This document shows, piece by piece, positions 5,927-22,010 of a stretch of DNA of 64,000 bases. Location: the NCBI RefSeq assembly GCF_030410135.1, contig NZ_JAUGQQ010000003.1:310001-374000 (forward strand), written 5' to 3'. This stretch comes from Aequorivita aurantiaca. Its GTDB lineage: Bacteria > Bacteroidota > Bacteroidia > Flavobacteriales > Flavobacteriaceae. Numbering within the stretch: position 1 is the first letter of the stretch; each line of letters starts with the position of its first letter. The notes below the pieces were generated by a model, which ran no database searches, was not told the origin of the DNA, and saw nothing but the letters and a program-made list of their open reading frames with translations. The position numbers and the translations under genes were made by a program.

Positions 5927-5938
5927 TGACATTCGTCA
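5927..5938. promoter_or_regulatory. Fnr-type palindrome TGACattcGTCA upstream of ccoS-NOQPGH
   Basis: A perfect TGAC-N4-GTCA dyad, preceded by TA, lies about 54 bases before the ccoS start codon and overlaps the stop codon of the upstream ATPase gene. It is one of nine similar sites in the first 22 kb. Binding by the Crp/Fnr-type regulator encoded at 17034-18083 is inferred. Confidence 0.65.
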
Positions 5939-8347
5939 CCTTTGCTTATTTATATCCATTCTTAGTTTTTTGCCTATATACTGTGTGGCAATAGTGGTAA
6001 AAACAACTATACTGATAGAGCTTAACGGCATCAAAATGGCAGCAACCACAGGTTTTAAATGCCCCGTTACCGCAAACGAAAGCCCGATTAAATTATAAAA
6101 CAACGATAGCAAAAAAGCCCATTTGATAATCCGTACTCCGCTTTTGGAAAAATTAAGATAATCCCCAATTTTTTTGAATTGGGCTGCATCCAGAATTCCA
6201 TCACAGGCCGGGGAAAAAACATTCGTATTTTCTGAAACCACAAAACCCACGTCGCTTTGTTTTAGTGCGCCGGCATCATTCAGCCCATCGCCTATCATTA
6301 AAACCTTTTTGCCTTTTTGTTGAAGGGTTTTAATAAAGTTGAGCTTATCGTCCGGTTTTTGGTTGAAGTAGAGTTTTGTTCCCTTGGGCAGTAGTGTTTC
6401 CAATCGTTCGCGCTCGCCTTCATTGTCGCCGGAAAGCACAATTACTTCTTTGTCGCTACCCAGTTGTTCAAAGATTTCGGCGACGCCATTTCTGTATTCG
6501 CTGTTAAAGATGTAGCATCCCTTATAAATTTTATTGGTGCTTATGTGTACGGTTGTTCTATTTTTCAATTCGAAAGTAGCTTCACTGTTAGCACCAACAA
6601 AATCGAACGAGCCTACCTTTATTGAATTTTGATTGAAGGTGGCGGACATACCCTTACCCACTTCTTCTTCAAAATCATCCAATGTTTGAATATCATTCTT
6701 TTCCAACATGGAATAAAGGGATCGGCTGAGTGGGTGGCCCGATGCCCTCAGGGTGCTGGTGAGCAGTTTGTTCTCTTCCGCCGAAAGCGCAATGCCTTCA
6801 TAGGTAATCATGTTTTTCTGGTTGGTTGTGAGCGTTCCGGTTTTATCAAAAACTACGGTGTCCAACTTCGCCATTTGCTCGATAACCGAGGCTTCCTTTA
6901 AATACAGTTTTTCCCTTCCGAAAATTCGCAACACATTGCCCAAAGTGAAGGGTGCGGCCAGCGCAATGGCACACGGACATGCAACAATCAAAACGGAAGT
7001 GAACACATTAAACGCTATTGAAGGATCAACAACCAGCCAAAAAATAGTGGCAACAAAAGCAATGGAAAGCAATACTATTGTAAAACGTTTGCTGATTGCA
7101 TCGGTAATATTTTCAAAGGCACCGGTCTTGTCCTTGCTAAAAACGTCATTGCTCCAAAGTTGGGTTAGGTAACTTTGCGCCACGGGTTTCAGCACTTCAA
7201 CTTCCAAAATACCGGCCTGTTGCTTTCCGCCCGCAAAAAGTTTATCGCCGCTTATTTTTGAAATTGGCTCCGCTTCGCCGGTAACAAAACTGTAATCTAT
7301 CAGTGCATTGCCCTTAATTAAAATGGCATCAACCGAAAGGATTTCATTATTGCGGATAAGCAGCCGATCGCCTTTTTTTACGTTGTAAACCTCGGCTTGT
7401 TCCTCGATTGTTTTTCCTTCGGCATTTTTGAAAAGTCGCGTAACGGCAATGGGAAAATAAGATTTATAATCCCGCTCAAAGGAAAGATAGCTGTAGGTTT
7501 TCTGCTGAAAAAATTTCCCGAGAAGCAAAAAGAAAACCAGCCCGCTCAAACTATCAAAGAAGCCCGTGCCCAAGTCCATCATAATATCAATAGTGCTTCG
7601 GATGAAAAGAACCGCAATTCCTAGGGCTATGGGAACATCTATGTTCAAAATTTTAGAGCGAAGCCCTTTGTAGGCCGAAGTGAAATAGCCACTGCCCGAG
7701 TAAAAAACCACCGGTAGCGAAAATGCAAACATCAGCCAGCGGAAAAAGGGTTTAAATTGGTCCAGCCAAAATTCGGAATGTTCGAAATATTCCGGAAACG
7801 AAAGGAACATAATATTGCCAAAAGCAAAACCCGCAATTCCGAGTTTATAGATTAGGCTTCGGTTGATGCTTTTTTCCTTTCTTTCGGAATCTTCCAGTGA
7901 AATGTATGGTTCATATCCTATTCGGCTTAAAAGAAGTACTAAGTTTTTCAGCGAATTTTCTTCGGAAGAAAAAGTTATTCGCACAGATTTTTCGGGAAAA
8001 TTAACTTGTGAAGATTTTACGGAAGGATTGAGCTTGTTCAAATTTTCAAGAATCCAAATGCAGCTGCTGCAGTGGATTGCAGGAATGGTAAAGGAAACAA
8101 TCCCGATATTGCCGTCATTGAATTCCAAAAGTTTATCAACAATTGCTGCATTATCAAGAAAATCATATTTTCCGGCAATTTCCTTTGGCGAAATTCCCGG
8201 GGTTTTTTCAAGATCGTAATAATAACTTAAATCGTTATCGTGCAGAATATCAAAAACTGTTTTGCAGCCATGACAACAAAAGGATTTTTCGGCATGTTGA
8301 ATTTCAACGTCCAAACACGCATCGCCACAATGGAAACAGTTAACCAT
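5936..8347 (-). CDS. ccoI: CcoI/FixI copper-translocating P1B-type ATPase
   Basis: The 803-residue protein begins with a cysteine-rich metal-binding segment (CFHCGD, CCHGC), then an HMA-type domain with the motif CSSCIW near residue 94. About eight membrane helices follow, including the transport motif CPCAIALA. The cytoplasmic part has the phosphorylation motif DKTGTLTT and the hinge motif GDGLNDAGAL. The CPC motif and the N-terminal zinc-ribbon-like segment are typical of CcoI/FixI, which moves copper across the membrane for the cbb3 oxidase. It is immediately upstream of ccoS (57 bases) on the same strand and has its own Fnr-type site. Confidence 0.94.
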   Translation of the reverse strand: MVNCFHCGDACLDVEIQHAEKSFCCHGCKTVFDILHDNDLSYYYDLEKTPGISPKEIAGKYDFLDNAAIVDKLLEFNDGNIGIVSFTIPAIHCSSCIWILENLNKLNPSVKSSQVNFPEKSVRITFSSEENSLKNLVLLLSRIGYEPYISLEDSERKEKSINRSLIYKLGIAGFAFGNIMFLSFPEYFEHSEFWLDQFKPFFRWLMFAFSLPVVFYSGSGYFTSAYKGLRSKILNIDVPIALGIAVLFIRSTIDIMMDLGTGFFDSLSGLVFFLLLGKFFQQKTYSYLSFERDYKSYFPIAVTRLFKNAEGKTIEEQAEVYNVKKGDRLLIRNNEILSVDAILIKGNALIDYSFVTGEAEPISKISGDKLFAGGKQQAGILEVEVLKPVAQSYLTQLWSNDVFSKDKTGAFENITDAISKRFTIVLLSIAFVATIFWLVVDPSIAFNVFTSVLIVACPCAIALAAPFTLGNVLRIFGREKLYLKEASVIEQMAKLDTVVFDKTGTLTTNQKNMITYEGIALSAEENKLLTSTLRASGHPLSRSLYSMLEKNDIQTLDDFEEEVGKGMSATFNQNSIKVGSFDFVGANSEATFELKNRTTVHISTNKIYKGCYIFNSEYRNGVAEIFEQLGSDKEVIVLSGDNEGERERLETLLPKGTKLYFNQKPDDKLNFIKTLQQKGKKVLMIGDGLNDAGALKQSDVGFVVSENTNVFSPACDGILDAAQFKKIGDYLNFSKSGVRIIKWAFLLSLFYNLIGLSFAVTGHLKPVVAAILMPLSSISIVVFTTIATQYIGKKLRMDINKQR

Positions 8348-8409
8348 TAATCTTAAAATTTGCTAGTTATTTCGGCTGCAAAGGTTGCAAGAGATTCGGT
8401 TTTGCGAAA

Positions 8410-8421
8410 TGACATTTGTCA
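8410..8421. promoter_or_regulatory. Fnr-type palindrome TGACatttGTCA upstream of ccoI
   Basis: A TGAC-N4-GTCA dyad is centred about 68 bases upstream of the ccoI start codon, in the 115-base gap between ccoI and the next gene. It belongs to the same set as the sites before ccoS, ric and the universal stress genes. Confidence 0.62.
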
Positions 8422-8462
8422 GTTTAAAACCCTTTAACGATATAACTTCTCAATAAAAAAAT

Positions 8463-9680
8463 TTAAGTCCTCGGAGAAAAATACAAATTTTTAATGTTTT
8501 TAAAAAACAAAAATGCCACTGCCACCGGAAAAACGGAACTTAAAATAGCAAGCAGCAAATAATATTGCGGAAATAGGGTAAACCCCATCCATAGGGCGAA
8601 AGCCTTATAAAATATGAGCACTTCCGTGCTCACAAAGGCAAAAAGAAAGAGCAATAAAAAGGTTTTGGACAGATTTATTAATTTGAAGTACTGCAGGAAT
8701 GCGAGCATGGATGGGATTACGATTCCCAAGAAAACCAAATGTAGATAGCCAATCACAAAATCCTTTAACTGAAATGCCAGATTAGCGAAATATGGTAAAG
8801 CAGAAACAAGCTGCAGGACAAGTTTTGCAACCATTAAAACCGCGGCAATTTTTAAAAGCCGAAAATTCATTTTGCTCCATCCCGCTTTTAAAATTGGCAA
8901 TTGTGGCCCTAATAACAAATAAAGCTCATAAAACGCCAAAACTTGCGCTACCGCACCAAACAGACCTAGCACATTTAATGCAACGGGCGGCAAAAACCAG
9001 AGAAATGATAGAAAAACGGTAAACAATATCCCGAAATTCAAAAGCAGAAAAAATGATTTCAGCTTTTGGGGATTGAAATAAATTCCTTTGGACTCCAATA
9101 TGTAGAACAATATGCCCAAAAGTGCAATTATAAACCAACCATTATATTGAAAATGGAGGTAGAAATAAATGGAGGATTTGTACCAAATAGATTCGGGACC
9201 CAATGTTGCCATTACACCACCAATTGCCCAAGGACCAATGCTGGAAAGCACCAGATACCAAAGGGAGGTTCTTATCAATTTATAGGAAAATCTCTTTCTA
9301 AAATGTTGCGGCACATATTTCATCGCGTAAAATGTAAACCAATAGGATGCAAACAGAAACAAGGTTGAAAATATGATTGAAAACAGTGCGTAACCCTGAA
9401 TGGGAAAGGTTATCAACATTCCGGCTATACATAGATTCGTAAACACAAAAATAATTTTGTACACCTTCGTCTTTTGTGCTTCGACAAGAAAAATTTTATA
9501 AATTAAAGTTGTAAGCCCCAAATAAATCCAGCCAAGCAGCGCAGTATGCGAGTGTGCGTGCAGAATGTATTTATAATTAAGCGAAATGGGCGTTACGAAA
9601 AACAAGCGCAGCAAAACCCCCATCAATGCTACCATCAAAAAGTAGAAAAGTGCAATGGCTATGTGTTTTCTTAAATCCAT
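8463..9680 (-). CDS. Polytopic membrane protein, haem-copper oxidase subunit I/NnrS-like
   Basis: The 405-residue protein is almost entirely hydrophobic, with about twelve predicted helices. Near its N-terminus it has the motif HAHSHTALLGWIYLG, and further on LHFQYNGWF. Histidine motifs of this type bind low-spin haem in the haem-copper oxidase superfamily and occur in NnrS, a haem- and copper-containing protein linked to nitric oxide stress. The catalytic copper-site histidines of true oxidases are not apparent. It lies downstream of ric, separated by a strong terminator, and upstream of ccoI. The nitric-oxide role is inferred from location; the family call is tentative. Confidence 0.6.
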   Translation of the reverse strand: MDLRKHIAIALFYFLMVALMGVLLRLFFVTPISLNYKYILHAHSHTALLGWIYLGLTTLIYKIFLVEAQKTKVYKIIFVFTNLCIAGMLITFPIQGYALFSIIFSTLFLFASYWFTFYAMKYVPQHFRKRFSYKLIRTSLWYLVLSSIGPWAIGGVMATLGPESIWYKSSIYFYLHFQYNGWFIIALLGILFYILESKGIYFNPQKLKSFFLLLNFGILFTVFLSFLWFLPPVALNVLGLFGAVAQVLAFYELYLLLGPQLPILKAGWSKMNFRLLKIAAVLMVAKLVLQLVSALPYFANLAFQLKDFVIGYLHLVFLGIVIPSMLAFLQYFKLINLSKTFLLLFLFAFVSTEVLIFYKAFALWMGFTLFPQYYLLLAILSSVFPVAVAFLFFKNIKNLYFSPRT

Positions 9681-9692
9681 CCGATTTCAAAA

Positions 9693-9752
9693 TTAAAAAA
9701 ACAGTTCGGATTTTGGCAGCAAACATTCAACGTTGCCAAAACTCCGAACTGT
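9693..9752 (-). terminator. Rho-independent terminator after ric
   Basis: Read on the minus strand, an inverted repeat of about 18 base pairs (ACAGTTCGGA..TTTTGGCA against its complement, with one extra base) is followed directly by a run of seven T. It lies between the ric stop codon and the start of the membrane protein gene, so it should end ric transcription. Confidence 0.88.
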
Positions 9753-9811
9753 CATAAAAACCAATCAAATAAAAAAACCAAAGATTTGGGGCGAGGAATT
9801 TTAAAAGCGGT

Positions 9812-10537
9812 TTAGTTTTTTGTTAGCCTCTTTTCCAGTCCCAAGGCTTTTGGGAAAAGTATGTTATTTTCCAAATGGATGTGTTGGTGCAAATCCTGTT
9901 CAAATTCATCCAATTTCGCATAAAATGCACGATAGGTATTGCAAGCTCCCTGAGGTGGAGTGAAGTTGTTGCTCAGTTCTGCAATTTTCCGCATTATTTC
10001 GCCAGCCTCCTCGTGCTCCTCCTCCATCATTTTAATAGGATTTTCCACAGTACCGAAATGTATCGCAGGCATTTCAGAGTTTTCCCGCTCTGCGTTTACC
10101 ATTTTTTTTATGAAGGGAAATAGAATCAGTTCTTCTTTCTTTTGGTGTGACGCCATAGCCTGAACAACCCTTGTTACCAAGGTTTCAATCTCGGCGAGTT
10201 CGGTATAGTGGTGGCCGTGAACTTGATTTACACGCTTTGAATATTGCAGTAAAAGTGGGCTATTTTCTTCCACATAATGATGGTGAACGTTGATGATATG
10301 GTCTGCCAGGAAATCTAGTTTCCAACTGTTATAATCGTGGGCGCGGTCCATTACATTATCCAGCTTTAATAATTCTGCCTCCAAAATGGTGGGATCTATC
10401 TTTGCTTTTTCACAGGCTTTTTTAATGCTTACCCCGCCGCCACAGCAGAAATCGATGCCGTGCTTCTTGAAAATGTGAGCTGCTTTTATATTTTCCGTAA
10501 CCACATCGGCTACCGTACGTTCTTGAAGTGTTGTCAT
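9812..10537 (-). CDS. ric: Ric/ScdA/YtfE, di-iron protein for iron-sulfur cluster repair
   Basis: This 241-residue cytoplasmic protein has the N-terminal ScdA_N domain with the signature HGIDFCCGGG (residues about 25-34), followed by a hemerythrin-like four-helix domain supplying His and Glu ligands (DHIINVHHHY, HQKKEELILFPF, EEEHEEAGEI, HIHLENNILFP). The family restores iron-sulfur clusters damaged by nitric oxide or oxidants. Length is normal. A TGAC-N4-ATCA site is centred about 69 bases upstream, and a terminator follows the gene. Neighbouring hemerythrin and Rrf2 genes support a nitrosative-stress role. Confidence 0.95.
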   Translation of the reverse strand: MTTLQERTVADVVTENIKAAHIFKKHGIDFCCGGGVSIKKACEKAKIDPTILEAELLKLDNVMDRAHDYNSWKLDFLADHIINVHHHYVEENSPLLLQYSKRVNQVHGHHYTELAEIETLVTRVVQAMASHQKKEELILFPFIKKMVNAERENSEMPAIHFGTVENPIKMMEEEHEEAGEIMRKIAELSNNFTPPQGACNTYRAFYAKLDEFEQDLHQHIHLENNILFPKALGLEKRLTKN

Positions 10538-10600
10538 GATTCTTATTGTTTTATTGAATAATTACAATGCAAATTTCAGAAACACGGCAAAAAGAAAATA

Positions 10601-10612
10601 TGACCTAAATCA
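10601..10612. promoter_or_regulatory. Fnr-type site TGACctaaATCA upstream of ric
   Basis: A TGAC-N4-ATCA dyad within TATGAC..ATCATA lies about 69 bases before the ric start codon, in the gap between ric and the hemerythrin gene. It matches the TGAY-N4-RTCA pattern seen before other stress genes here. Confidence 0.6.
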
Positions 10613-10686
10613 TAAACAGATATTTTTGTCCGAAATAAAAAACCAATCATCTTGAACTATCCTTATTTTCTGATATTCAGAAGAAA

Positions 10687-11151: not shown

Positions 11152-11319
11152 CGTTATTGTTTTAAAAATGAAATTCCGTGGTTAAATCCAATGGCCAGTT
11201 CAAATAAGATTTTGTTGTTGAGCATCTTCTCTGTGCAAAGATAGGAAACGGAGCAAATTCAGACAAAATTATCGGAAATAAAAACGGGATGATATTATTA
11301 TTGAATTAATTTGAATTAT

Positions 11320-11766: not shown

Positions 11767-11853
11767 ATTTATAAAAAAGCCTCAACAAATAACATAGAAT
11801 TGCCTAAAGTGCTCAGTGGCAGGTTTTTTCAGAAAGTGTTCCAGTGAATATTT

Positions 11854-13122
11854 TTAACCATTAAAACGCTCCCATGCCGCTTTTTCCAATGCCTCACGGT
11901 GGTCCGGGTGTGCTATGGAAATTAGCGCTTTCGCCCGTTGCTCCAAGCCTTTCCCGAAAAGATTCACAACACCATATTCCGTTACAACGTAATGCACATG
12001 GGCACGAGTGGTTGTAATACTGGCACCTTCCTTTAAAAAAGGTGTAATCTTGGAAATTCCTTTATTAGTGATGGAGGGCATAGCAATAATTGGTTTTCCG
12101 CCCGGTGAAAGCGAAGCCCCGCGAATAAAATCCATTTGCCCGCCCACTCCGGAATATTGATACATACCAATACTATCTGCACAAACTTGGCCGGTCAAAT
12201 CAATTTCGATTGCACTGTTTATTGCTGTTACTTTGGGATTTCTACGGATAATGGCGGTGTCATTGGTATATGCCGCTTCCTTAAAATGGACGATGGGATT
12301 ATCATTTATGAAATCATATAAATTCTTTGTTCCCATTGCGAAACAGGTAACTATTTTCCCCGTTTTAATTTCTTTTTCCTCGCCCGTAATAATTCCATTT
12401 TCGACCAATGGCAGTATGCCATCACTGAACATTTCGGTATGTATTCCCAATCTTTTATGATTGCCCAAATTGTGAAGCACCGCATTGGGAATGTTCCCAA
12501 TGCCCATTTGGAGAGTGGCGCCGTCTTCTACCAATTCGGCTACATTCCTTCCAATAGTGACCTCAATTTGTGATGGTTCACCCAACACGGATGCATAAAT
12601 AGGGGAATTTATTTCCACCCCAAAATCGATATTTTTTATATGAATTATGCCATCGCCATGGGTTCTGGGCACGTTTGGATTGATAAGTGCAACCACATGT
12701 TTTGCAGTTTGAATGGCGGGCAGGGTAACATCTACCGATACCCCAAGCGAGCAATAACCGTGTTTGTCAGGAGGTGACACCTGAATAAAGGCCACGTCCA
12801 ATGGAAGAATATTTCTTCTAAAAAGCCAGTGGATTTCACTTAAGAAAACCGGAATATAATCGCCATAGCTGGTATTCACACCTTTTCGAACATTGTCGCC
12901 AACAAAGCAACTTGAAAGATGGAAAGCATCAGTATACGGGGCTTGTGCGTATTTTGCCTCGCCGTGGGTGTGAATCTGGATTATTTCAACATTCTCTAGT
13001 TCCCGATAACGTTCGCACAGGGTGTCAATCAACAAGTTTGGGGTCATTGCCGCACCTTGAAAGAACACGCGGTTATTGGTTTTTACTATGGATACGGCCT
13101 CTTCGGCGGAAACTATTTGCAT
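11854..13122 (-). CDS. Acetyl-CoA hydrolase / 4-hydroxybutyrate CoA-transferase family
   Basis: The reading frame is open to 13242, but a start at 13122 (MQIVSAEEAVSI) is chosen. The longer form would overlap the upstream gene and has an implausible basic N-terminus. The protein of about 422 residues has the class I CoA-transferase fold, with the motif GIHTEMFSDG holding the probable catalytic Glu and the glycine motif GGQMDFIRGA. Family members transfer CoA between acetyl-CoA and carboxylates, often yielding acetate during fermentation. A TGAT-N4-GTCA site sits about 52 bases upstream, fitting low-oxygen induction. The actual acceptor acid cannot be read from sequence. Confidence 0.85.
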   Translation of the reverse strand: MQIVSAEEAVSIVKTNNRVFFQGAAMTPNLLIDTLCERYRELENVEIIQIHTHGEAKYAQAPYTDAFHLSSCFVGDNVRKGVNTSYGDYIPVFLSEIHWLFRRNILPLDVAFIQVSPPDKHGYCSLGVSVDVTLPAIQTAKHVVALINPNVPRTHGDGIIHIKNIDFGVEINSPIYASVLGEPSQIEVTIGRNVAELVEDGATLQMGIGNIPNAVLHNLGNHKRLGIHTEMFSDGILPLVENGIITGEEKEIKTGKIVTCFAMGTKNLYDFINDNPIVHFKEAAYTNDTAIIRRNPKVTAINSAIEIDLTGQVCADSIGMYQYSGVGGQMDFIRGASLSPGGKPIIAMPSITNKGISKITPFLKEGASITTTRAHVHYVVTEYGVVNLFGKGLEQRAKALISIAHPDHREALEKAAWERFNG

Positions 13123-13168
13123 AATGTAATTTTTGTGCAAAGGTTGGGAATAGGTTCGAAATTTTAAA

Positions 13169-13180
13169 TGATTTTGGTCA
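13169..13180. promoter_or_regulatory. Fnr-type site TGATtttgGTCA upstream of the CoA-transferase
   Basis: This dyad lies about 52 bases before the chosen start codon at 13122, in the 85-base gap between two minus-strand genes. Its presence also supports the shorter start, because the longer reading frame would place the site inside the gene. Confidence 0.55.
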
Positions 13181-13207: not shown

Positions 13208-13804
13208 CTACAGCGCCACTTCCGTGGTTTCCAAAATGTCATTCACAATGGATAGACCTTTGTCCTGATTGTACCATAGTTGAAGCATTTCCTTAAAAGT
13301 ATCGTCAATTTTACCGTGGCGGGTTTTATAATCCGCAACCAATTTGGTAGCCGCTTTGGAGCGGGGACCAAAAGTTTGATTAACGTTGAAATTTTCATCC
13401 ACCATAATTAAGATTGGAATGGAGCGGGTGCCGTTGGTCAAAAACTTATCCATCAATTCAGGATTATCATCGCGAAGCACAATTCTCAAATAAATATTTT
13501 CAGAAAGTTGGGCCATCTTATTTAAATAAGGCAATGTTTGTGCTGCGTCGCCGCACCAAGGCTCACTGATCACTAGCCAAGTTTGTTTGTCGGGAAAGTT
13601 TTTCAAGATTTGGGCCTGCTCCGTCAAAATTTCAGCGGTTTTGTCCAATCGTTTGCTTCGGCTGACGTTCAATTTGGTGTAATCTATTTTCTCCTGCGTT
13701 TGCACGCCAGTGGTGCTGCCCGCTTCCACCAATTGCTTAAAAAGTAGATTATACTGTGTATAATCCATGGCGTTGTTGATGGAGTTTTCTATTATATATT
13801 TCAT
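13208..13804 (-). CDS. Thioredoxin-like protein with a single active-site cysteine
   Basis: The 198-residue protein has a thioredoxin fold in its middle part. The motif WLVISEPWCGDAAQTLP (about residues 75-92) stands where WCxxC would be, but only the first cysteine is kept. This monothiol WCGDA form is common in a Bacteroidetes family of thioredoxin-like proteins of unknown partner. There is no signal peptide, so it should be cytoplasmic. An in-frame Met at residue 13 is an alternative start. A TGAC-N4-ATCA site lies about 100 bases upstream, placing it in the putative low-oxygen regulon. Confidence 0.82.
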   Translation of the reverse strand: MKYIIENSINNAMDYTQYNLLFKQLVEAGSTTGVQTQEKIDYTKLNVSRSKRLDKTAEILTEQAQILKNFPDKQTWLVISEPWCGDAAQTLPYLNKMAQLSENIYLRIVLRDDNPELMDKFLTNGTRSIPILIMVDENFNVNQTFGPRSKAATKLVADYKTRHGKIDDTFKEMLQLWYNQDKGLSIVNDILETTEVAL

Positions 13805-13901
13805 GGTTTAATTCTTTTAATTTGTTTTTTCCAATGCAAACATTTAATCTTTAGCTGTGATGACGGTATGCAAAATAAGCATTCAAAAAAGTATCAAATT
13901 A

Positions 13902-13913
13902 TGACTGTTATCA
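13902..13913. promoter_or_regulatory. Fnr-type site TGACtgttATCA upstream of the thioredoxin-like gene
   Basis: The site is embedded in TATGAC..ATCATA, the same extended form as the ric site. It lies about 100 bases before the start at 13804 and 85 bases after the end of the stress protein gene at 13999. Confidence 0.55.
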
Positions 13914-13998: not shown

Positions 13999-14847
13999 TT
14001 AAGAAGATAATGGCACTACCAACGTTGGCACATGGGCGTGTTTCCCTACCCTATTTACAACCGGTTCGCGAAAAAGCTGCTTTAGAAAGGCGTGCTTGTG
14101 ATAAACCAATGCGAACAAATCTATGTTATGGCCATCAATGAAGGTGTGCAACGTTTTTGAAATGTTTTCCTTTTTCGGAATAAAATGAAATTCCGAATCA
14201 TATTCCGTGAGGTCGTTTTTAAAGTTTTCCAGGTTCTGTTTTTGCGCAACATCCATTTCCTTTTCTCCGCCCACATGCACCAAATGAATGATGGAATCAT
14301 ATTGCCGAACCAAACGAACGATAGGCTTTAAACTCGAAATTGGATAAAAATCTTTATAATCCGTCGCAAATGCTATGTTTATCGGCACCACGAAATCTAT
14401 ATTGCGCGGAATAATCAAAAGCGGACAGGCTTCTATGGACTTTGTAATTTTAATGGTTGTACTTCCCATCAAAATATCTTCCGTACTGGTGCGGCCCTTG
14501 CTACCCATTACCACCAGATCCATTCCTTCGGTGGCAACCAAAGTATTGATGGTGTTTGAAAGCGCCGCGGGTGTTGAAATTACTTCATAACTGTGCGCTA
14601 TTTTTGGGGAATCCAGTTTAATTTGCTTCACCAATGCCAAACCGTCTTCATCAGACTGCCGGTACAGCTTTTCGATAATGCTTTCTGAACGACCGATATC
14701 AACACGACTGGTCAGCTTGCCCACTTCCTCCCCAAATGAGTGCAGAAGGGTTATTTGCAAAGGTTCATCCCTGTAAAGTTTTGTTATATATAATAGGGCT
14801 GCATAGGCATTTTCGGAGAAATCGGTGGGAATGAGGACTTTTTTCAT
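13999..14847 (-). CDS. Universal stress protein, tandem UspA domains
   Basis: The 282-residue protein has two UspA-like domains (about 1-150 and 155-280). Domain 1 begins with KKVLIPTDFSENAYAAL and has the ATP-binding pattern VMGSKGRTSTEDILMGSTT. Domain 2 is degenerate, without a clear glycine loop. Such proteins bind ATP and accumulate under growth arrest or low oxygen. It is 22 bases downstream of another Usp gene on the same strand, so the two probably share the promoter and Fnr-type site upstream of 15700. Confidence 0.92.
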   Translation of the reverse strand: MKKVLIPTDFSENAYAALLYITKLYRDEPLQITLLHSFGEEVGKLTSRVDIGRSESIIEKLYRQSDEDGLALVKQIKLDSPKIAHSYEVISTPAALSNTINTLVATEGMDLVVMGSKGRTSTEDILMGSTTIKITKSIEACPLLIIPRNIDFVVPINIAFATDYKDFYPISSLKPIVRLVRQYDSIIHLVHVGGEKEMDVAQKQNLENFKNDLTEYDSEFHFIPKKENISKTLHTFIDGHNIDLFALVYHKHAFLKQLFREPVVNRVGKHAHVPTLVVPLSS

Positions 14848-14869
14848 TTTATGAATGTTTAGAAATGTA

Positions 14870-15700
14870 TTATCGAGGAAGGTTTTGAAGTACTAAAAAT
14901 GGAATATCTATTTTAAGGCCAATTTTTTCAATAGTTGATTGATGAAGAATATTCTCCAAATAAGAATGACGGGTATTTATCATTACAAGAAAATCGACGC
15001 TGTTTTCAGCGATAACTGAATTAATGGTTGATGTTATATCGGCTCCCATTTCCTGCCTGAAATTCACCTTATTTTCAGCAAATGAAGCTTCTAAAAAGTC
15101 TTTATTCTCCTGCTGCCTTAATGATAAAGTAGGGAATTTTGAAACATATAAAAATTCAACTTTGGAAACGAAGCGTTTCGCAATACTGCTCACTAGCTTT
15201 AATTCCCGGCGTTTATAGGGCAATTGGAAATCCGTGGGGAACAATAGCTTTTTTGGATGAACGTCCTCATAAACCGAAGGAATGGCAAGCACAGGGCATT
15301 TCACTAGCTTAATAACTTGAAGAGTGTTGCTGCCAAACGTAATTTTTTTATCGGCAGTTTTGCCTTTAGTACCCATTACTACCACGTCAATATCTTCCTT
15401 ATCCACCCAGTCATTCACTTCATCAACCAGCAATCCCGGAGCTGGAACAATATGAATTTTATGTTTGGGATTGGGCGAAAAACTTTGGATTTGCTTTCTT
15501 TTTTCCTCCAATTCAATTTCCACCATTTCCGAAACCTTCATTTGTTTCCCCTCAAATTTGGCAGTATTTATGGGGGTTTCGGCATCAAAGACGTGCATCA
15601 AAAAAATCTCTGAATGTTCATATTTAAAAAGTTCGGTGGCGTATCGAACTGCGTTCATCGAATTCTCAGAAAAATCAGTGGGAATCAAAATTTTTCTCAT
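14870..15700 (-). CDS. Universal stress protein, tandem UspA domains
   Basis: The 276-residue protein starts with RKILIPTDFSENSMNAV and carries the nucleotide-binding loop VMGTKGKTADKKITFGSNT in its first domain. The second domain (about 150-276) keeps the fold but lacks the glycine loop. It is the first gene of a two-gene Usp operon, and a TGAC-N4-ATCA site lies about 62 bases upstream. Similarity to the other three Usp proteins here in the start motif and domain plan suggests local duplication. Confidence 0.92.
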   Translation of the reverse strand: MRKILIPTDFSENSMNAVRYATELFKYEHSEIFLMHVFDAETPINTAKFEGKQMKVSEMVEIELEEKRKQIQSFSPNPKHKIHIVPAPGLLVDEVNDWVDKEDIDVVVMGTKGKTADKKITFGSNTLQVIKLVKCPVLAIPSVYEDVHPKKLLFPTDFQLPYKRRELKLVSSIAKRFVSKVEFLYVSKFPTLSLRQQENKDFLEASFAENKVNFRQEMGADITSTINSVIAENSVDFLVMINTRHSYLENILHQSTIEKIGLKIDIPFLVLQNLPR

Positions 15701-15756
15701 GGGGAAGGTTTTTTATAAATATCCGTAAAGATAGCCATAAAATACGCGTGAAAATA

Positions 15757-15768
15757 TGACTTTTATCA
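15757..15768. promoter_or_regulatory. Fnr-type site TGACttttATCA upstream of a Usp operon
   Basis: The site lies in the divergent gap between the Usp gene starting at 15700 and the small plus-strand gene at 15843. It is about 62 bases from the Usp start and 80 bases from the other start, so it could act on either. Confidence 0.58.
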
Positions 15769-15842
15769 ACCAATGACCTGATTTTTAGCGAATCATTAAG
15801 AATGACAACCTTGAAATTTCATTATCTTAAAATAAAAAAATT

Positions 15843-16067: not shown

Positions 16068-16087
16068 CAAATGAATAAATTTTAAAG

Positions 16088-16924
16088 CTATTCATGAAGA
16101 ACCAAAAACGGCACTTTTGTAGTGTAACCAATGTCCGGGAACGTGGGGCGAAGTAGCAATCTTTGAATAAAATTTAAATTTTTTGCCACCACCGAAAGTA
16201 GATTTATATCCCATGTTTCCACAAAATCCTGGATTCCCATTTCCAAATCCTTGGATTCCACAAAATGGAAACTGTGTTTTTTTTCCTTAAAAGAATAGTG
16301 TAAAAATCCTTTATTATCGGTTTGGGATGCGGTCAAATTAGCGTTTGGCAGTTTTATATGCAACACCCGAAGCGGAGATTGATGCAGCTCCAAGGTTTGC
16401 GCAAGCGTGCTGATAACCTTGTTCCTGTATATGCCATTGTAATCAGTCAAAAACGCGATGTTGTTAATGAGCTTAAACCTGGCGTTTTGCGGTATTACGA
16501 GAATGGGACATTTCACCTTCGTGATCACGTCACAGGCATTGCTTCCCAATTCGCTGCTTTCCATTGTTGAATTTCCCCGCGTACCCATCACTATAAAATC
16601 AATTTCTATTTTGGCCATCTTTTTTCTGATGGCTTCCACCAAAGACAAGTTTTCGTGATGCGGAAAAAAATTGTGCGCTTTATTTGTTGTGTGAAATTTA
16701 CACATTCTGATTTCTTCCTTCAATAAAGCAGAAACGGATTTGACAGTTTGTATTTTTTCGTCCGACTGTATAATTGATTCCTGCTCCTTGGTTTCAGCAA
16801 AATTTTCGGAAGAAACATGCAGCATATGAAAATTCACCTCCACGCCCGAAAAATACTCCAAGGCATATTTCATGGCGTTGTGTGAACTATCGGAAAAATC
16901 CGTTGGAATTAAAATATTCATCAT
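16088..16924 (-). CDS. Universal stress protein, tandem UspA domains
   Basis: The 278-residue protein begins with MNILIPTDFSDSSHNAM and has VMGTRGNSTMESSELGSNA as the nucleotide-binding loop of domain 1. Domain 2 begins near residue 155 and is diverged. A TGAT-N4-ATCA site, the closest here to the classic Fnr sequence, is centred about 56 bases upstream. It sits between the response regulator gene and the small membrane protein gene, on the same strand as the regulator. Confidence 0.92.
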   Translation of the reverse strand: MMNILIPTDFSDSSHNAMKYALEYFSGVEVNFHMLHVSSENFAETKEQESIIQSDEKIQTVKSVSALLKEEIRMCKFHTTNKAHNFFPHHENLSLVEAIRKKMAKIEIDFIVMGTRGNSTMESSELGSNACDVITKVKCPILVIPQNARFKLINNIAFLTDYNGIYRNKVISTLAQTLELHQSPLRVLHIKLPNANLTASQTDNKGFLHYSFKEKKHSFHFVESKDLEMGIQDFVETWDINLLSVVAKNLNFIQRLLLRPTFPDIGYTTKVPFLVLHE

Positions 16925-16974
16925 AGCATCCTAAGGTCACCGACAAAAATATCGGTATGCATCGGGACAGAAAA

Positions 16975-16986
16975 TGATATAAATCA
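16975..16986. promoter_or_regulatory. Fnr-type site TGATataaATCA upstream of a Usp gene
   Basis: This dyad matches the core of the E. coli Fnr consensus (TTGAT-N4-ATCAA) except for the outermost bases. It lies about 56 bases before the Usp start at 16924 and just beyond the stop of the regulator gene. Confidence 0.65.
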
Positions 16987-17033
16987 GCTTTACGATAATG
17001 GGATGCCCAAGAAACGCTTAATTATTTTGCGTA

Positions 17034-18083
17034 TCAGTCAATAGCCCGCAAGCTTTCCACATTTACAATTCTAATATCACGGCCTTCAATTTCAATGATG
17101 CCGTCTTTTTTGAAATCAGATAGGGTCCGGATCAGGCTTTCGGTAGCAATGCCGGCCGTTGTGGCAAGATCATTCCGGGAGATGCGAAGGGCAGCCCCAG
17201 GTTTTTTATCCATAATTTCCACAAATTGAAGAATGGTGCTAGCAGTTTTTTTTCGGACGGAGCTATATGCCATTTTCACCAATTGCTGTTTTATTTCGGA
17301 AAGATTATCGGTCAAAAGGTTCATCAGTTCCAAGGAAACATCTTGGCTTTTTTTCAGAATATCTCTCACATAGATTTTTGAAATGCCCACAACTTCCGTT
17401 TCCTCAACCGCAGTGGCCGTTTCGTTGTAGGGAATGTTATCATCAAACGAGGTGAAACCCAAAAAATCATCTGCTTTATAAAGGCCGGTAATTAACTCCT
17501 TGGCATTCGCATCCATTGTGTGTGTTTTCACAACGCCCTTCAATATTAAAAACATGCTGTTGGAATGCGCCCCTTTTTTATAGATGGTTTCCCCTTTTTT
17601 AAAGTGGGCCACTTCACCTTCATCACAAAAAAAGTTTTTCAGTTGGTTTAGGTTTTGGGGGTTCTCGTCCTCTTCTCTTGGACTTTGCTCCTTTTCATCG
17701 CGGCTTTTCAGGATGCTAGCCTTTGCCAATCTGCTTTCCACGGCACTTAGCAGCTCCTGTTCGTCAAAAGGTTTTGTAAGATAATCGTCGGCACCCATAT
17801 CCATTCCTTTTCTAATTTCCTTGTGTTCGGTTTTCGCCGAAAGGAAAATGAATGGAATATGTTTAGTTCTTTCTTCTGATGAAACGTTTTCAAGCACGCC
17901 GTAGCCATCAATTTCGGGCATCATTATGTCGCAAATAATAATATCAGGCATTTCGCTTTTGGCCTTTTCGATTCCTATTTTGCCGTTGGGTGCAGTAAAA
18001 ACGGCATAGCCGGAGAGTTCCAATAGTTCAGCAGTGTTTTCACGCAAGGCGGTATCGTCTTCAATCAGAAGTATTTTTTTCAT
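17034..18083 (-). CDS. Response regulator fused to Crp/Fnr transcription factor (REC-CRP)
   Basis: The 349-residue protein has a receiver domain (about 1-120) with phospho-acceptor Asp52 in ICDIMMPE and the conserved LTKPFD lysine. A cyclic-nucleotide-binding-like beta-roll follows (about 150-265), then a Crp-type helix-turn-helix (about 290-345, NDLATTAGIATESLIRTLSDF). The recognition helix keeps the Glu and Arg of Fnr but has Ile in place of Ser. No four-cysteine cluster is present, so oxygen is probably not sensed directly. It looks like FixJ and FixK joined in one protein. The PAS kinase gene ends six bases upstream, so kinase and regulator form an operon. Confidence 0.93.
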   Translation of the reverse strand: MKKILLIEDDTALRENTAELLELSGYAVFTAPNGKIGIEKAKSEMPDIIICDIMMPEIDGYGVLENVSSEERTKHIPFIFLSAKTEHKEIRKGMDMGADDYLTKPFDEQELLSAVESRLAKASILKSRDEKEQSPREEDENPQNLNQLKNFFCDEGEVAHFKKGETIYKKGAHSNSMFLILKGVVKTHTMDANAKELITGLYKADDFLGFTSFDDNIPYNETATAVEETEVVGISKIYVRDILKKSQDVSLELMNLLTDNLSEIKQQLVKMAYSSVRKKTASTILQFVEIMDKKPGAALRISRNDLATTAGIATESLIRTLSDFKKDGIIEIEGRDIRIVNVESLRAID

Positions 18084-18089
18084 CCTAAT

Positions 18090-19319
18090 TTATATGTTTT
18101 TTAATGGAAAAGTAATTGTGAAAGTGCTCCCCACGCCTTCTTCGCTTTCAAAAGTTATGGTCCCACCAAGGCTTTCCAAATGGCTTTTCACGATGTTCAA
18201 TCCAATGCCAGTGCCTTGGTCCAAAAGTGCATTTTCAGCTCGGAAATATCTGTTGAAGATATATTTCTGTTCCTTTTTTGGAATCCCCATTCCCTCGTCA
18301 ATTATTTTAATGGTAAGAAAATCCTTTTTCGGAATCACTTCCACATCAATAACGGTGTGGCCCGGGGAATACTTTATGGCATTGTTTATAAGGTTTGTAA
18401 GCGATAATTCCAGAATTTTTTCGTCAAAATTCACCTGAATTTCATCAACGTTTTGTGGATAATTAATGCGTTGTCCTTCCTTCAAAAGCATATTCGCGCT
18501 GTAGATAACTTCATTCACCACCTTGCTAAGCGGAAACGTTTCAAATTTATACGTCGCTTTTCCGGACTCCAAACGCTCGATAGAGAGGAAATCATTCAAG
18601 ATATTGTTCAAATATTTAACCTTGCTTTGGATGGTTTTCAAATGCTTTTCCCGCTTGTCCTGTTGTTCTGTTTCCGTATATTTCCCCACAAGCATTGCGG
18701 AAGTTAGTATTCCACTTAATGGGGTTTTGAATTCGTGGGAAACGAGCGATAGAAACTTTGTTTTCAAATCATTGAGTTCCCGTTCCTTCCGCAGTGATTC
18801 CATAATTTTATGCTCTGCCTCCTTTCGTTTTAAAACTTCTTCCTTCAGTTCTTTTATGGTCTGCTTGAGCTCGGTAGTGCGTTCGTCAATTTTTTGTTCC
18901 AAAAGCAGGTTAAGTTCCATAATCTGCTTTTCATGGGTTTTACGAACCGAAATATCCGTGACCAAGGCCATGACATATTTACTGCCCTCAATTTCAAATG
19001 GATTCAATCCCGCCTCCACAGGAAATATGGTGCCGTCCTTCCGGCGGCCGTACAGATCGCGGCCATGGCCCATTTGCCTGGGAGCGCTCTTGTCCAAATA
19101 ATGGGTAACCTGCTGCGTGTGGGTATGTCTATATTCACGAGGAATCAACAAGTTGATGCTTTCGCCCAAAAGTTCATTTGGCCCATAGCCGAACATCCGG
19201 TCCGCAGCTTCATTGGAGGTCACTACTTCCTGACGTTCGTTCACAATCACGATACCTTCTGATATTGCTTCAGAAAGAATTTTAAATATGTTTCCCTTTT
19301 TTTCCTCGAAAACCTTCAT
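18090..19319 (-). CDS. PAS-domain histidine kinase, FixL-like
   Basis: Start chosen at 19319 (MKVFEEKKGN); the frame extends to 19424 but would run into the divergent promoter. The protein of about 409 residues has an N-terminal PAS domain (about 10-125), a coiled coil (about 130-185), a HisKA domain with phospho-acceptor His195 in SHEFKTP, and an ATPase domain with DEGMGIP and GTGIGLNIV. No membrane helix is seen. Aligned by eye to rhizobial FixL, His67 (HTHTQQ) falls at the proximal haem ligand and Arg87 (GHGRD) at the distal Arg. A haem oxygen sensor is therefore likely but unproven. Confidence 0.92.
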   Translation of the reverse strand: MKVFEEKKGNIFKILSEAISEGIVIVNERQEVVTSNEAADRMFGYGPNELLGESINLLIPREYRHTHTQQVTHYLDKSAPRQMGHGRDLYGRRKDGTIFPVEAGLNPFEIEGSKYVMALVTDISVRKTHEKQIMELNLLLEQKIDERTTELKQTIKELKEEVLKRKEAEHKIMESLRKERELNDLKTKFLSLVSHEFKTPLSGILTSAMLVGKYTETEQQDKREKHLKTIQSKVKYLNNILNDFLSIERLESGKATYKFETFPLSKVVNEVIYSANMLLKEGQRINYPQNVDEIQVNFDEKILELSLTNLINNAIKYSPGHTVIDVEVIPKKDFLTIKIIDEGMGIPKKEQKYIFNRYFRAENALLDQGTGIGLNIVKSHLESLGGTITFESEEGVGSTFTITFPLKNI

Positions 19320-19356
19320 CCGCCAAAAATAAGGATTTTCGGCTGTTTTCGGGAAC

Positions 19357-19368
19357 TGATCTTTATCA
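19357..19368. promoter_or_regulatory. Fnr-type site TGATctttATCA before the kinase-regulator operon
   Basis: The dyad lies about 43 bases upstream of the kinase start at 19319 and 58 bases before the divergent gene at 19426. It suggests that the REC-CRP regulator controls its own operon. Confidence 0.58.
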
Positions 19369-19425
19369 TAAATTGAATCCGTAAAACAATATAGATTTAC
19401 ACCCTTAAAATTTAAAAATTGCACT

Positions 19426-19830
19426 ATGGCAACTGCCGAAAAACCTCAACTTCTATATTATCAAAAAGTGGCGGAACTTTTTTATGCCCTTGCTGCGACA
19501 AATTTGGTAGTCCAAAAATCCGAATTTGAGATATTGGGAACTTTGGTTTTAGAGCAATGGAATAATCTAAAATATAGTGAAGATCCCTATTTCGCCGAGG
19601 CTGCCACACAAATGAAGATAGTTTTTGAATGGTTTGATTATGAAAACCTTGACGCCAACGATTGTTTTGAAAGTTTTGCCGATTATAAAAACGAACATCC
19701 CCAGCTTTTCAACAACGAACGAAATAACATTATTTGGCAAACCGCAAACACAATTGTTGATGCATTCGCCGGAAAAAGTAAAGCGGAAATAAAAATGCTT
19801 TCCAAATTGAACTCATTGCTAAACCAATAA
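19426..19830 (+). CDS. Helical protein of unknown function (TerB-like?)
   Basis: The 134-residue protein is predicted to be all-helical and acidic, with no signal or membrane segment. Its layout (FYALAATNLVVQKSEFEIL early, then DYKNEHPQLF and a final helix KAEIKMLSKLNSLL) loosely recalls TerB-type helical domains, but I cannot claim membership. It is divergent from the kinase-regulator operon and shares its 106-base intergenic region, including one Fnr-type site. thioredoxin and deoC follow on the same strand. Confidence 0.75.
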   Translation: MATAEKPQLLYYQKVAELFYALAATNLVVQKSEFEILGTLVLEQWNNLKYSEDPYFAEAATQMKIVFEWFDYENLDANDCFESFADYKNEHPQLFNNERNNIIWQTANTIVDAFAGKSKAEIKMLSKLNSLLNQ

Positions 19831-19900
19831 GCGGCGGCAAGAATTCATTTTAAACTTGAAGATTGATTGCTTAACTTTATAATTACTAAAAAAAATTGTT

Positions 19901-20203
19901 ATGAAAAGCAACTTCAAAGAAATCATAGATTCCGAAACTCCGGTGCTGGTGGACTTTTTCGCAGATTGGTGCGGCCCATGCAAAATGCTTTCCCCGATAT
20001 TGAAACAGGTAAAGGACGAACTCGGTGAAGCAGTAAAAATTGTGAAAATTGATGTTGATAAAAACCAACCCTTAGCATCACAATATCAAGTTCGGGGCGT
20101 GCCAACGTTGATTCTTTTTAAGAATGGCAAACAACTGTGGCGGCAGAGTGGTGTTCTTCAAAAAGATGAACTTGTTTCCATTATCGGGCAACATAAAAAT
20201 TGA
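19901..20203 (+). CDS. trxA: Thioredoxin
   Basis: The 100-residue protein is a classic small thioredoxin with the active site DFFADWCGPCKMLSP at about residues 20-34 and the cis-proline motif RGVPTLILF. It reduces disulfides of cytoplasmic proteins using thioredoxin reductase. The stop codon overlaps the deoC start by one base (TGATG), so the two genes are translationally coupled. It lies 70 bases after an unknown helical protein gene. Confidence 0.95.
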   Translation: MKSNFKEIIDSETPVLVDFFADWCGPCKMLSPILKQVKDELGEAVKIVKIDVDKNQPLASQYQVRGVPTLILFKNGKQLWRQSGVLQKDELVSIIGQHKN

Positions 20204-20868
20204 TGCAACTGAACCGTTTTATTGACCACACCCTTCTAAAGGCAACTGCCCTGCCCGAAGATATTATTACCTTATGCCGTGACGCCATAAAATATGATTT
20301 TCACGCCGTTTGCGTGAACAGCGGTAATGTGCTTCTGGCTAAAAGAGAGGTAAAGGATAGTGGCGTAATGGTAGCTTCTACAGTAGGTTTTCCTTTGGGA
20401 GCACAGAGCAGCGCGGCGAAAGTGAAGGAGGCCGCGCAATGCATAACCGATGGGGCCGATGAAATTGATATGGTTATAAACATTGGTTTGCTAAAGGCCA
20501 ATTGCCACCGCCCTATTTTGGAAGAAATCAGGGAGGTGAAAAAGACCATTGGCAGCAAATCCTTAAAGGTTATTTTGGAAACGTGTTATTTAAACGAGGA
20601 AGAAATTAGAACGGCCTGCAAAATAGCCAAAGAAGCCGACGCGGATTTTGTAAAAACCTCCACAGGCTTCGGCACGGGAGGTGCCACGGAACAGGCTGTA
20701 AAGATAATGGTTGACGCGGTGGGAAAGCATTTAAAGATAAAAGCCTCTGGCGGAATCAAGGATTATGCGACCGCTATCAAATTTATTGATTTGGGAGTGA
20801 GCAGAATTGGCACCTCTTCTGGCATGGAAATTATCGGCGGCACTGGAGCGAAAACTTCTTTATATTAA
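20203..20868 (+). CDS. deoC: Deoxyribose-phosphate aldolase
   Basis: Start at ATG 20203 is preferred over the in-frame TTG at 20200 because it gives the MQLNRFIDHTLLKA beginning typical of the family and a one-base overlap with thioredoxin. The protein of about 221 residues has the Schiff-base lysine in DFVKTSTGFG and the second active-site lysine in KASGGIKD. It cleaves 2-deoxyribose-5-phosphate to glyceraldehyde-3-phosphate and acetaldehyde in deoxynucleoside breakdown. Length matches the short bacterial form. Confidence 0.96.
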   Translation: MQLNRFIDHTLLKATALPEDIITLCRDAIKYDFHAVCVNSGNVLLAKREVKDSGVMVASTVGFPLGAQSSAAKVKEAAQCITDGADEIDMVINIGLLKANCHRPILEEIREVKKTIGSKSLKVILETCYLNEEEIRTACKIAKEADADFVKTSTGFGTGGATEQAVKIMVDAVGKHLKIKASGGIKDYATAIKFIDLGVSRIGTSSGMEIIGGTGAKTSLY

Positions 20869-20955
20869 AACCTTATTCGAAACCATTTTTTGAAAAAAGT
20901 TTATGGCAGCGATTGGATATAGATTGGAAATGCGCCCGCTGGATTTCTACAAAAT

Positions 20956-20991
20956 AAAAAAGCAGGAATATGTATTATAATCCTGCTTTTT
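20956..20991. terminator. Bidirectional terminator between deoC and a Usp gene
   Basis: The inverted repeat AAAAAGCAGGA ... TCCTGCTTTTT with a loop of about 14 bases has A-rich and T-rich flanks on both sides. It sits between two convergent genes and can end transcription from both. Confidence 0.88.
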
Positions 20992-21019
20992 AGCTTTAAT
21001 TGTTGCAATTCGAAATTAA

Positions 21020-21856
21020 CTATACTCTAAATGTTATCACCGGCAAGTCAGAATGGTTTACAACATCCTCACCAATACTTCCTGAGAAGAAATGCGCCAA
21101 GCCTTGACGACCTTGGGTGGGCAAAGCAATTATGTCTGCATTGCTAACTTGGCTATAGCCGAAAATTCCCGCCTCTACGGAATATTCATTGTATTGGGCA
21201 ACTTTATTTAACAGTTCCAACGGGTTGCTTTCACCCGCGTTGTTTAAGAAATTTAGGATTCGTTTTTCTGTTTCACGGGTGCTTTGGAAATTGCCCGAAA
21301 CGTTTACGTAGAGCATTTGCATTTCAATTCCGAGGGCTTCAAAAAGATTTTTTGCACGCCTGTATGGGCCCAATGAATTGTCTTGGAAGTCGCAGGCGAA
21401 TATTCCTAGTTGGGGATTGAAATTCTCGTGGCGGTGTTTGATTACCAACACGGGAACTTCTGATGTCCGCACCACTTTTTCAGTATTGCTTCCTACAAAA
21501 ACTTCCTTTAAGCCTGAAGTTCCGTGGGAGCCCATTACTATTAATTCGGCCCCTAAATTAAGGGCTACCTCATTTATTTCGCTGAAAATCCTATAATTAT
21601 GGACGGTGTCCGTAACGGTTATTCCCTTTAGGTATTCCCTGTCCACAAATTCCGCAAAACGCTTTTTGGCCAGCTTCATATATAGCAGGACCTCAACGGA
21701 TTCGTTGTTTTCATCACGGGTTACTACGGCATCACTAAGCCCTATCATGTGCAACGCAATTATTTCAGCATTTTGTTTTCTGGCAATTTTGGCTGCCACT
21801 TCCATTGCATATTCGGAATGTATAGAGAAATCGACGGGTACTAGGATTTTTTTCAT
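21020..21856 (-). CDS. Universal stress protein, tandem UspA domains
   Basis: The 278-residue protein opens with MKKILVPVDFSIHSEYAM and has the loop VMGSHGTSGLKEVFVGSNT in domain 1. Domain 2 ends with the partly kept loop LPTQGRQGLAHFFSGSIG, so both halves may bind nucleotide, unlike the other three Usp proteins here. A TGAC-N4-GTCA dyad lies about 148 bases upstream. It is convergent with deoC across a shared terminator and is the last member of the stress region before the accessory stretch. Confidence 0.93.
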   Translation of the reverse strand: MKKILVPVDFSIHSEYAMEVAAKIARKQNAEIIALHMIGLSDAVVTRDENNESVEVLLYMKLAKKRFAEFVDREYLKGITVTDTVHNYRIFSEINEVALNLGAELIVMGSHGTSGLKEVFVGSNTEKVVRTSEVPVLVIKHRHENFNPQLGIFACDFQDNSLGPYRRAKNLFEALGIEMQMLYVNVSGNFQSTRETEKRILNFLNNAGESNPLELLNKVAQYNEYSVEAGIFGYSQVSNADIIALPTQGRQGLAHFFSGSIGEDVVNHSDLPVITFRV

Positions 21857-21998
21857 GATTCTTTTTTTTTGTTAATAATTGACGGCTCTTGGTTCTTGGC
21901 TTTTCGCTCTTCGCATTTCCTTTTAGCTTTTACCTTTTCACCAGTAATATTAATTTTTGATTAATTTCAAATATATCCCGAATTTATGGTATTTGAAA

Positions 21999-22010
21999 TG
22001 ACCAATGTCA
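21999..22010. promoter_or_regulatory. Fnr-type site TGACcaatGTCA upstream of a Usp gene
   Basis: The site lies in a 314-base gap (21857-22170) about 148 bases before the Usp start. Apart from this dyad the gap holds only low-complexity sequence, with repeated CTT/TTC words around 21884-21945; no gene is seen there. Confidence 0.5.

Follow-up and report, generated by a model that had tools for sequence, protein, structure and literature searches.

The box recognized by FixK is of the TGA-N6-TCA type, and the core dyad is the same for FNR, FnrL and ANR. The mycobacterial hypoxia regulon combines the heme-sensor kinases DosS and DosT, which sense through GAF domains, with the NarL-type response regulator DosR, and includes many genes encoding universal stress proteins (Usp). 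For the Flavobacteriaceae, major degraders of marine organic matter, little on low-oxygen sensing turned up among the literature matches listed, and none of these matches describes a receiver-Crp oxygen regulator in Bacteroidota by title or abstract opening; subscription journals are mostly outside the scope of this search. A term search of a 2005 signalling census gave no passage on receiver-Crp proteins. Passages of a study on Caulobacterales propose that FnrN was lost and that FixLJ with FixK took its place, the targets of FixK including cco and hemN (PMC4999443), and excerpts of a meta-regulon study predict a MalR-like, carbon-sensing role for a Flavobacteriales Crp/Fnr protein (PMC8510549).

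We here consider a stretch of 64 kb from the genome of the marine bacterium Aequorivita aurantiaca (Flavobacteriaceae; contig NZ_JAUGQQ010000003.1, positions 310,001 to 374,000; the window in the following), in which nine dyads of the form TGAY-N4-RTCA precede respiratory, NO-related, CoA/acetate and Usp genes. An initial annotation had joined these genes into one regulon, a grouping that is supported here, and had placed a Crp/Fnr-type regulator in the middle of the set. The latter is the protein denoted REC-CRP (17034..18083, minus strand), which consists of a receiver, a cNMP-type sensor and a Crp helix-turn-helix. We consider it probable (roughly 0.78) that the nine dyads are the operators of one regulon, which would be read by REC-CRP together with a FixL/DosP-like heme-PAS kinase and activated in class II fashion at low oxygen. 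The system is best described as an Fnr/FixK-type regulon that is predicted to be run by a fused response regulator and a kinase of the heme-PAS type.

The window contains 12 matches to TGAY-N4-RTCA. Nine of them fall within positions 5927-22010, and these are the dyads assigned earlier to ccoS, ccoI, ric, the CoA-transferase gene, the thioredoxin-like gene, three Usp units and the kinase-regulator operon, all nine of which we located. None of 100 dinucleotide shuffles of the window reaches 12 matches (mean 3.83, maximum 9). The whole genome (3.09 Mb, 53 contigs) contains 115 matches, compared with 74 for a reversed-pattern control. From the genome-wide count, 0.60 dyads are expected in the span of 16,084 bases that holds the nine, an approximately fifteenfold excess (Poisson P(>=9) = 1.6e-8; about 6e-6 once roughly corrected for scanning). 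The three remaining dyads of the window (28553, 55658 and 56761) look like background, as they lie within ORFs and none of them ranks in the top ten of the promoter matches. The extended form TTGAY-N4-RTCAA, with the outer bases of FNR, has 0 matches in the window. The base preceding TGAY, previously given as A or T, is indeed A in eight of the nine sites but C at 19357.

All nine dyads are followed at a distance of 23 bases by a Bacteroidota-type -7 box (TANNTTTG or a near form), the distance being 25 bases on the kinase side of site 19357; the boxes of ccoI, ric, the CoA-transferase gene, the thioredoxin-like gene and Usp2 have one mismatch to TANNTTTG. Owing to this box downstream, each dyad has the appearance of an operator in a class II-type promoter, and the spacing puts the dyad centre near -41 (by the -7 and -41 position conventions for Bacteroidota promoters). 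An operator near -41 with TANNTTTG at a fixed spacing is the arrangement of a class II Crp/Fnr-type promoter. The promoters on the minus strand, detected both by a composite pattern of dyad plus box and by a matrix unless noted otherwise, consist of operator 5927-5938 with the box TAATTTTG (5896..5938), 5' of ccoS and then ccoNO; operator 8410-8421 with AACCTTTG (8379..8421), 5' of ccoI; operator 10601-10612 with GAAATTTG (10570..10612), 5' of ric; operator 13169-13180 with AACCTTTG (13138..13180), 5' of the CoA-transferase gene; operator 13902-13913 with the weaker box TTATTTTG (13871..13913; matrix, missed by the composite pattern), 5' of the thioredoxin-like gene; operator 15757-15768 with TATCTTTA (15726..15768), 5' of Usp2 with Usp1 directly behind; operator 16975-16986 with TATTTTTG (16944..16986), 5' of Usp3; and operator 21999-22010 with TATATTTG (21968..22010), 5' of Usp4. 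Operator 19357-19368 is common to two promoters, one on the minus strand with the kinase-side box TATTTTTG just 5' of ATG 19319 (19324..19368; matrix, missed by the composite pattern), the other on the plus strand with the divergent box TAGATTTA for the gene of a 134-aa protein (19357..19399; pattern and matrix).

The initial annotation had described all nine sites as intergenic or at gene borders and mostly 40-105 bases ahead of a start codon. Six sites are situated wholly between called ORFs, and site 5927 overlaps only the ccoI stop codon; sites 13169 and 19357 lie within mechanically called ORFs, probably only because these ORFs begin too far upstream. The true starts are probably ATG 13122 (CoA-transferase) and ATG 19319 (kinase), each 3' of the site and its -7 box. 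The Usp4 site, at 142 bases from the start codon, lies beyond the given range of distances. Site 19357 does precede the kinase-regulator operon and is also placed between two divergent genes, such that the interval 19319-19426 has a single operator with a -7 box on either side. The 25-base spacing on the kinase side is conserved in most of the Aequorivita relatives compared, and the kinase transcript is probably leaderless, since its -7 box ends a few bases 5' of ATG 19319.

The composite pattern occurs in 13 places genome-wide, 10 of which are within about 29 kb of the same contig (C33:303221-332010), two of these ten to the left of the window, whereas a reversed control has 3; these counts do not include the thioredoxin-like site (Trx9) and the kinase side of 19357, which the pattern misses. 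One of the three matches outside the cluster is 5' of a catalase gene. When a matrix built from 138 promoters in 68 loci that are not titled Aequorivita was run along the window, its highest scores, 16.0-31.5, fell on the nine sites (ten promoters, 19357 being counted on both sides); the reversed window peaks at 7.2.

The operators belong to a family that extends across related genomes. We compiled 80 named loci, the best 80 of at least 581 relatives of the regulator, mostly titled Flavobacteriaceae (1.53 Mb in total); the closest relatives among them are from Aequorivita (91%). With a spacer of 4 bases, the half-sites are found 504 times in this DNA, as opposed to 60-107 times for any one of eleven other spacers. 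The dyads at spacer 4 are intergenic in 428 of 504 cases (85%), compared with 8-16% for the control spacers 2, 3, 5, 6 and 7; the refutation proposed with the initial annotation, that such dyads be equally common within genes, was thus put to these loci and did not hold. Around the 504 sites, TANNTTTG begins exactly 23 bases past the dyad in 165 cases, the next offset accounting for 14. The intergenic placement and the fixed offset of 23 bases indicate a genuine promoter-operator family. The earlier assignment to an Fnr/FixK-type pair of half-sites is supported. Dyad sites are present 5' of the relative of Usp3 and of the relative of the kinase in 17 of 17 fetched Aequorivita loci.

The 80 loci contain 378 composite promoters, 356 with a downstream ORF and 22 without. 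Targets were named by the longest downstream ORF, which left 120 of the 356 unlabelled in the first pass (an S30AE cluster among them) and, because of the longer spacing to its -7 box, undercounts the kinase. The commonest named targets are Usp genes (143 composite promoters in 73 of the 80 loci). Relatives of the 134-aa gene are downstream of 42 composite promoters in 41 loci, and the S30AE ribosome-hibernation family is downstream of 29 in 29 loci; further targets are the kinase (25), ccoNO/S/I (15) and hemN (8). Genes for Hsp20, YceI and pyridoxamine-oxidase-like proteins are downstream of such promoters in few loci. The S30AE, Hsp20, YceI and pyridoxamine-oxidase-like targets suggest a dormancy-like programme. 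As the loci were picked around REC-CRP, the mix of targets is skewed to its neighbourhood.

REC-CRP matches PF00027 and PF13545, both above the cut-offs. The receiver aspartate D52 is kept in 80 of 81 aligned rows, the remaining row being gapped, and the recognition-helix residues E315, I318 and R319 are invariant in all 81. The protein therefore has a Crp-type fold whose recognition helix carries E and R, the residues that read TGA half-sites in FNR. The only cysteines of REC-CRP are at positions 51 and 153, neither at an Fnr ligand position, and a search of its sequence for the N-terminal CxxC and the cysteine near 122 of the FNR cluster found neither. A plain Fe-S FNR was accordingly ruled out as the local regulator, in view of the missing cysteines at the ligand positions and because there is no Fnr match at E<=1e-30 in the same genome. 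Among the 25 best of 106 NCBIfam matches, no model spans the whole REC-CRP architecture. A tree of 33 Crp domains, built with a view to a possible descent of REC-CRP from the neighbouring Fnr and with three long rows that are unreliable, needs two changes each for REC-CRP and Fnr. Some genomes carry two or three REC-CRP proteins: the copies in G034 are 56% and 51% like that of the window, and other genomes have a copy near 45%. Of the loci L051-L053 (genomes G034 and G028), L052 has 12 dyads of the form TGAY-N4-RTCA and L053 has 8, both loci being about 20 kb long.

The kinase gene (18090..19319, minus strand, probable start ATG 19319) encodes a FixL-like sensor kinase consisting of a PAS domain and a HisKA-HATPase core (PF00512 and PF02518, both above cut-offs). 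It ends 6 bases ahead of the REC-CRP gene, and a kinase is found within 3 kb of REC-CRP in 78 of the 80 loci. The closest solved relatives of the PAS domain are two heme-based oxygen sensors, DosP (8.8e-19) and FixL (6.9e-16); 14 solved sequences match at 1e-8 or better, 13 of which are DosP/YddU or FixL. A histidine of DosP, which we take to be the axial heme ligand, aligns with H102 of the kinase (numbered from the GTG-started reading). Of 79 kinase rows, 74 have His in this column and 57 have kept R122. By alignment, the PAS domain of the kinase is predicted to be of the heme type.

The distribution of the regulator was followed first within the genus. Of 28 Aequorivita genomes, all but G026 encode REC-CRP. 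G026 has 4 composite promoters, compared with 13-42 in the other 27, and in this genome neither a kinase at E<=1e-50 nor ccoNO (best match 2e-9) was found. Composite promoters are not diagnostic of REC-CRP alone, an idea we rejected because many genomes without REC-CRP have them. Their occurrence there led to a search that found a stand-alone Crp protein adjoining ccoI (10 of 11 examined) in relatives that lack REC-CRP, and also in G028, which has a REC-CRP as well. An N-terminal CxxC and further cysteines near positions 53 and 106 are common to all 11 of these proteins; for the one tested, the best NCBIfam match is Fnr. Its recognition helix, TATESAIR, is close to IATESLIR of REC-CRP.

We further considered 149 evenly drawn Flavobacteriaceae genomes, with presence defined by E<=1e-45 (REC-CRP, Fnr) and 1e-100 (ccoNO). 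Seven weaker matches in the Fnr search were excluded (G077, G081, G101, G111, G137, G141 and G146); the ccoNO match of G132 covers residues 443-732 only, and the Fnr-only genome G068 matches Fnr from residue 33. Among the 124 genomes with ccoNO, 46 have both regulators, 28 REC-CRP only, 50 Fnr only and 0 neither, while 19 of the 25 genomes without ccoNO have neither regulator (Fisher P 4e-19 for co-occurrence of ccoNO and regulator, uncorrected for phylogeny). In 28 of the 124 genomes, REC-CRP is hence the sole one found of the two candidate readers of the operator. The operators of ccoS and ccoI are alike whichever regulator is present: they were found in 19 of 20 (ccoS) and 19 of 19 (ccoI; one ccoI was not found) REC-CRP-only genomes, 20 of the 28 having been read, and in 20 of 20 and 19 of 20 Fnr-only genomes, 20 of the 50 having been read, with a -7 box in all but one case. 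The fused-ccoNO matches of 17 genomes (including G067, G092, G099 and G107) have in-frame TAA codons, one in 14 genomes and two in 3; ccoN and ccoO are possibly separate adjacent genes there.

In the mechanism we propose, a drop in oxygen, or another ligand of the heme, would release the partner kinase, which would then phosphorylate the receiver of REC-CRP at D52. The Crp domain would bind TGAY-N4-RTCA centred near -41, and REC-CRP, acting as a class II activator, would recruit polymerase to promoters with a -7 box. The output would be a microaerobic and survival programme that comprises the cbb3 oxidase, the copper ATPase, Ric, the CoA-transferase, the thioredoxin-like protein and Usp, as well as hemN and the nirK operon outside the window. 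The kinase-regulator pair lies under one of the operators and is therefore probably self-amplifying. Low oxygen as the signal, already suggested by the initial annotation, is what we infer here as well. It is about an even bet that, across much of the Flavobacteriaceae, the heme kinase and REC-CRP took over, or share, the operators of Fe-S Fnr and are linked to a survival programme of Usp and hibernation genes that is similar to the dormancy regulon of mycobacteria, of which the ~29-kb island would be the local instance.

Several observations weigh against this reading. Binding, heme, kinase and expression are all deduced from sequence; of the 79 kinase rows, 5 lack the axial His and 22 the distal Arg; and the genome analysed here, with 13 composite promoters, has fewer than any other of the 27 Aequorivita genomes bearing REC-CRP. 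The operator is also not confined to REC-CRP, since relatives without this protein have many composite promoters (for example 38 in G030 and 31 in G032) and 46 genomes hold both regulators. The co-occurrence test takes no account of phylogeny. Among the 64 half-site triplets at spacer 4, TGA comes only fifth by raw count, behind TTT, AAA, ATT and AAT, all of them AT-only; what sets TGA apart are the controls for spacer and placement. The greater abundance of AT-only triplets would also fit chance palindromes in AT-rich intergenic DNA, as would the genome count of 115, only moderately above the reversed control of 74, on account of which isolated dyads away from the cluster may in many cases be noise. 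For the nine sites themselves we regard chance as practically negligible and rejected it, given the specificity for spacer 4, the intergenic placement, the exact 23-base spacing of the -7 box, the conservation across genera and the scan with an independent matrix.

The main uncertainty concerns the identity of the Crp-type protein that binds and the signal to which it responds. Another stand-alone Crp/Fnr protein might read the operators while REC-CRP controls something else: the genome has two further HTH_Crp_2 matches (one under the curated cut-off), one of them carrying E and R at the equivalent places of a somewhat similar helix (VETVIR), and the stand-alone Fnr beside ccoI in sister genera seems to serve the same operator. 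Yet both other Crp proteins are encoded on contig C22 and the operator cluster is on C33, the genome has no match to the sister-genus Fnr at E<=1e-30, and the operators are grouped around REC-CRP and the kinase, one preceding the pair. Moreover, the 80 loci, chosen only for relatives of REC-CRP, are rich in the operators, and in the Aequorivita genome lacking REC-CRP (G026) the promoter count is at background level, so that we hold a different reader to be improbable. Somewhat less remote, though still unlikely, is a regulon driven by REC-CRP whose primary signal is NO or the redox state instead of oxygen. Heme-PAS domains can bind NO, and Ric is a member of the set, as is a copper nitrite reductase encoded outside the window; on the other hand, the cbb3 oxidase, ccoI and the oxygen-independent HemN are typical low-oxygen targets, and the nearest solved PAS domains are those of oxygen sensors. 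The passages on Caulobacterales, with cco and hemN as FixK targets, likewise argue for oxygen (PMC4999443).

The genes in question are encoded on the minus strand except for one gene. They begin with fixH and fixG, which may share the ccoS promoter, ccoP, ccoQ (under the Pfam cut-off), the fused ccoNO and ccoS (269..5878), followed by a ccoI-type copper ATPase (5936..8347), the iron-sulphur repair protein Ric (9812..10537, above the NCBIfam cut-off), an acetyl-CoA hydrolase/transferase-family protein that reaches no NCBIfam cut-off (11854..13122), a thioredoxin-like protein (13208..13804, Thioredoxin_9), Usp1 and Usp2 with 282 and 276 aa (13999..15700) and Usp3 (16088..16924). Beyond REC-CRP and the kinase are the divergent gene of the 134-aa protein, which has no Pfam or NCBIfam match (19426..19830, plus strand), and Usp4 (21020..21856). 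The interval between ccoI and ric (8463-9680) encodes a 405-aa protein with no above-cut-off Pfam match and no NCBIfam match; a 50% relative is located in the same neighbourhood of genome G034 (L051).

The set extends to the left of the window, with sites 5' of hemN and of the nirK operon 5.3-6.8 kb upstream; HemN and the copper nitrite reductase are both above NCBIfam cut-offs. In this region (L147, 12120-18457) an ECF sigma-factor gene is directly 5' of hemN, and one regulon promoter is followed by genes for a porin, a NirK fused to a cytochrome c domain, an FGE-domain protein and SCO1. The initial annotation can be extended in several respects: its set of genes grows by hemN and nirK, its regulator proves to be a response regulator partnered by a FixL-like kinase, the sites are uniformly near -41, and an Fnr-like protein replaces REC-CRP in sister genera.

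Compared with FNR, FnrL and ANR, the system has a class II-type operator position and the same types of target, but REC-CRP carries a receiver and only the two cysteines mentioned. In the stand-alone proteins of the sister genera, CxxC and C106 fall, by match offset, on C20, C23 and C122 of E. coli FNR, whereas C29 has no counterpart. The system is similar to DosS/DosT-DosR in that a kinase, here predicted to be a heme sensor, and a response regulator would drive many Usp genes, and S30AE relatives and an Hsp20 relative are also behind promoters in relatives of the window; the output domain of REC-CRP, however, is not homologous to that of DosR. A close parallel is FixL-FixJ-FixK of Alphaproteobacteria; common to both are a histidine kinase, in the present case predicted to be of the heme-PAS type, a receiver and a Crp/Fnr-type domain without Fe-S cysteines, with cco and hemN as targets and a box of the TGA-N6-TCA type. 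As in FixJ there is a receiver, with D52 present, but its output is Crp-type instead of LuxR-type. Receiver and Crp domain, as a rule parts of different proteins, are joined in one protein here, whereas FixK is a single-domain protein whose gene is switched on by FixJ; there is neither a FixJ-type LuxR output nor a separate step of fixK transcription. The promoter is of the Bacteroidota type, and Usp genes are the commonest named targets around REC-CRP. The finding thus names regulator, sensor, operator and targets, and it offers a natural comparison, in which like operators at the same genes are accompanied by an Fnr-like protein in some genera and by a fused two-component regulator in others. 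The pair looks like a FixL-FixJ-FixK cascade condensed to two proteins, which would replace Fnr while the operator stays as it was.

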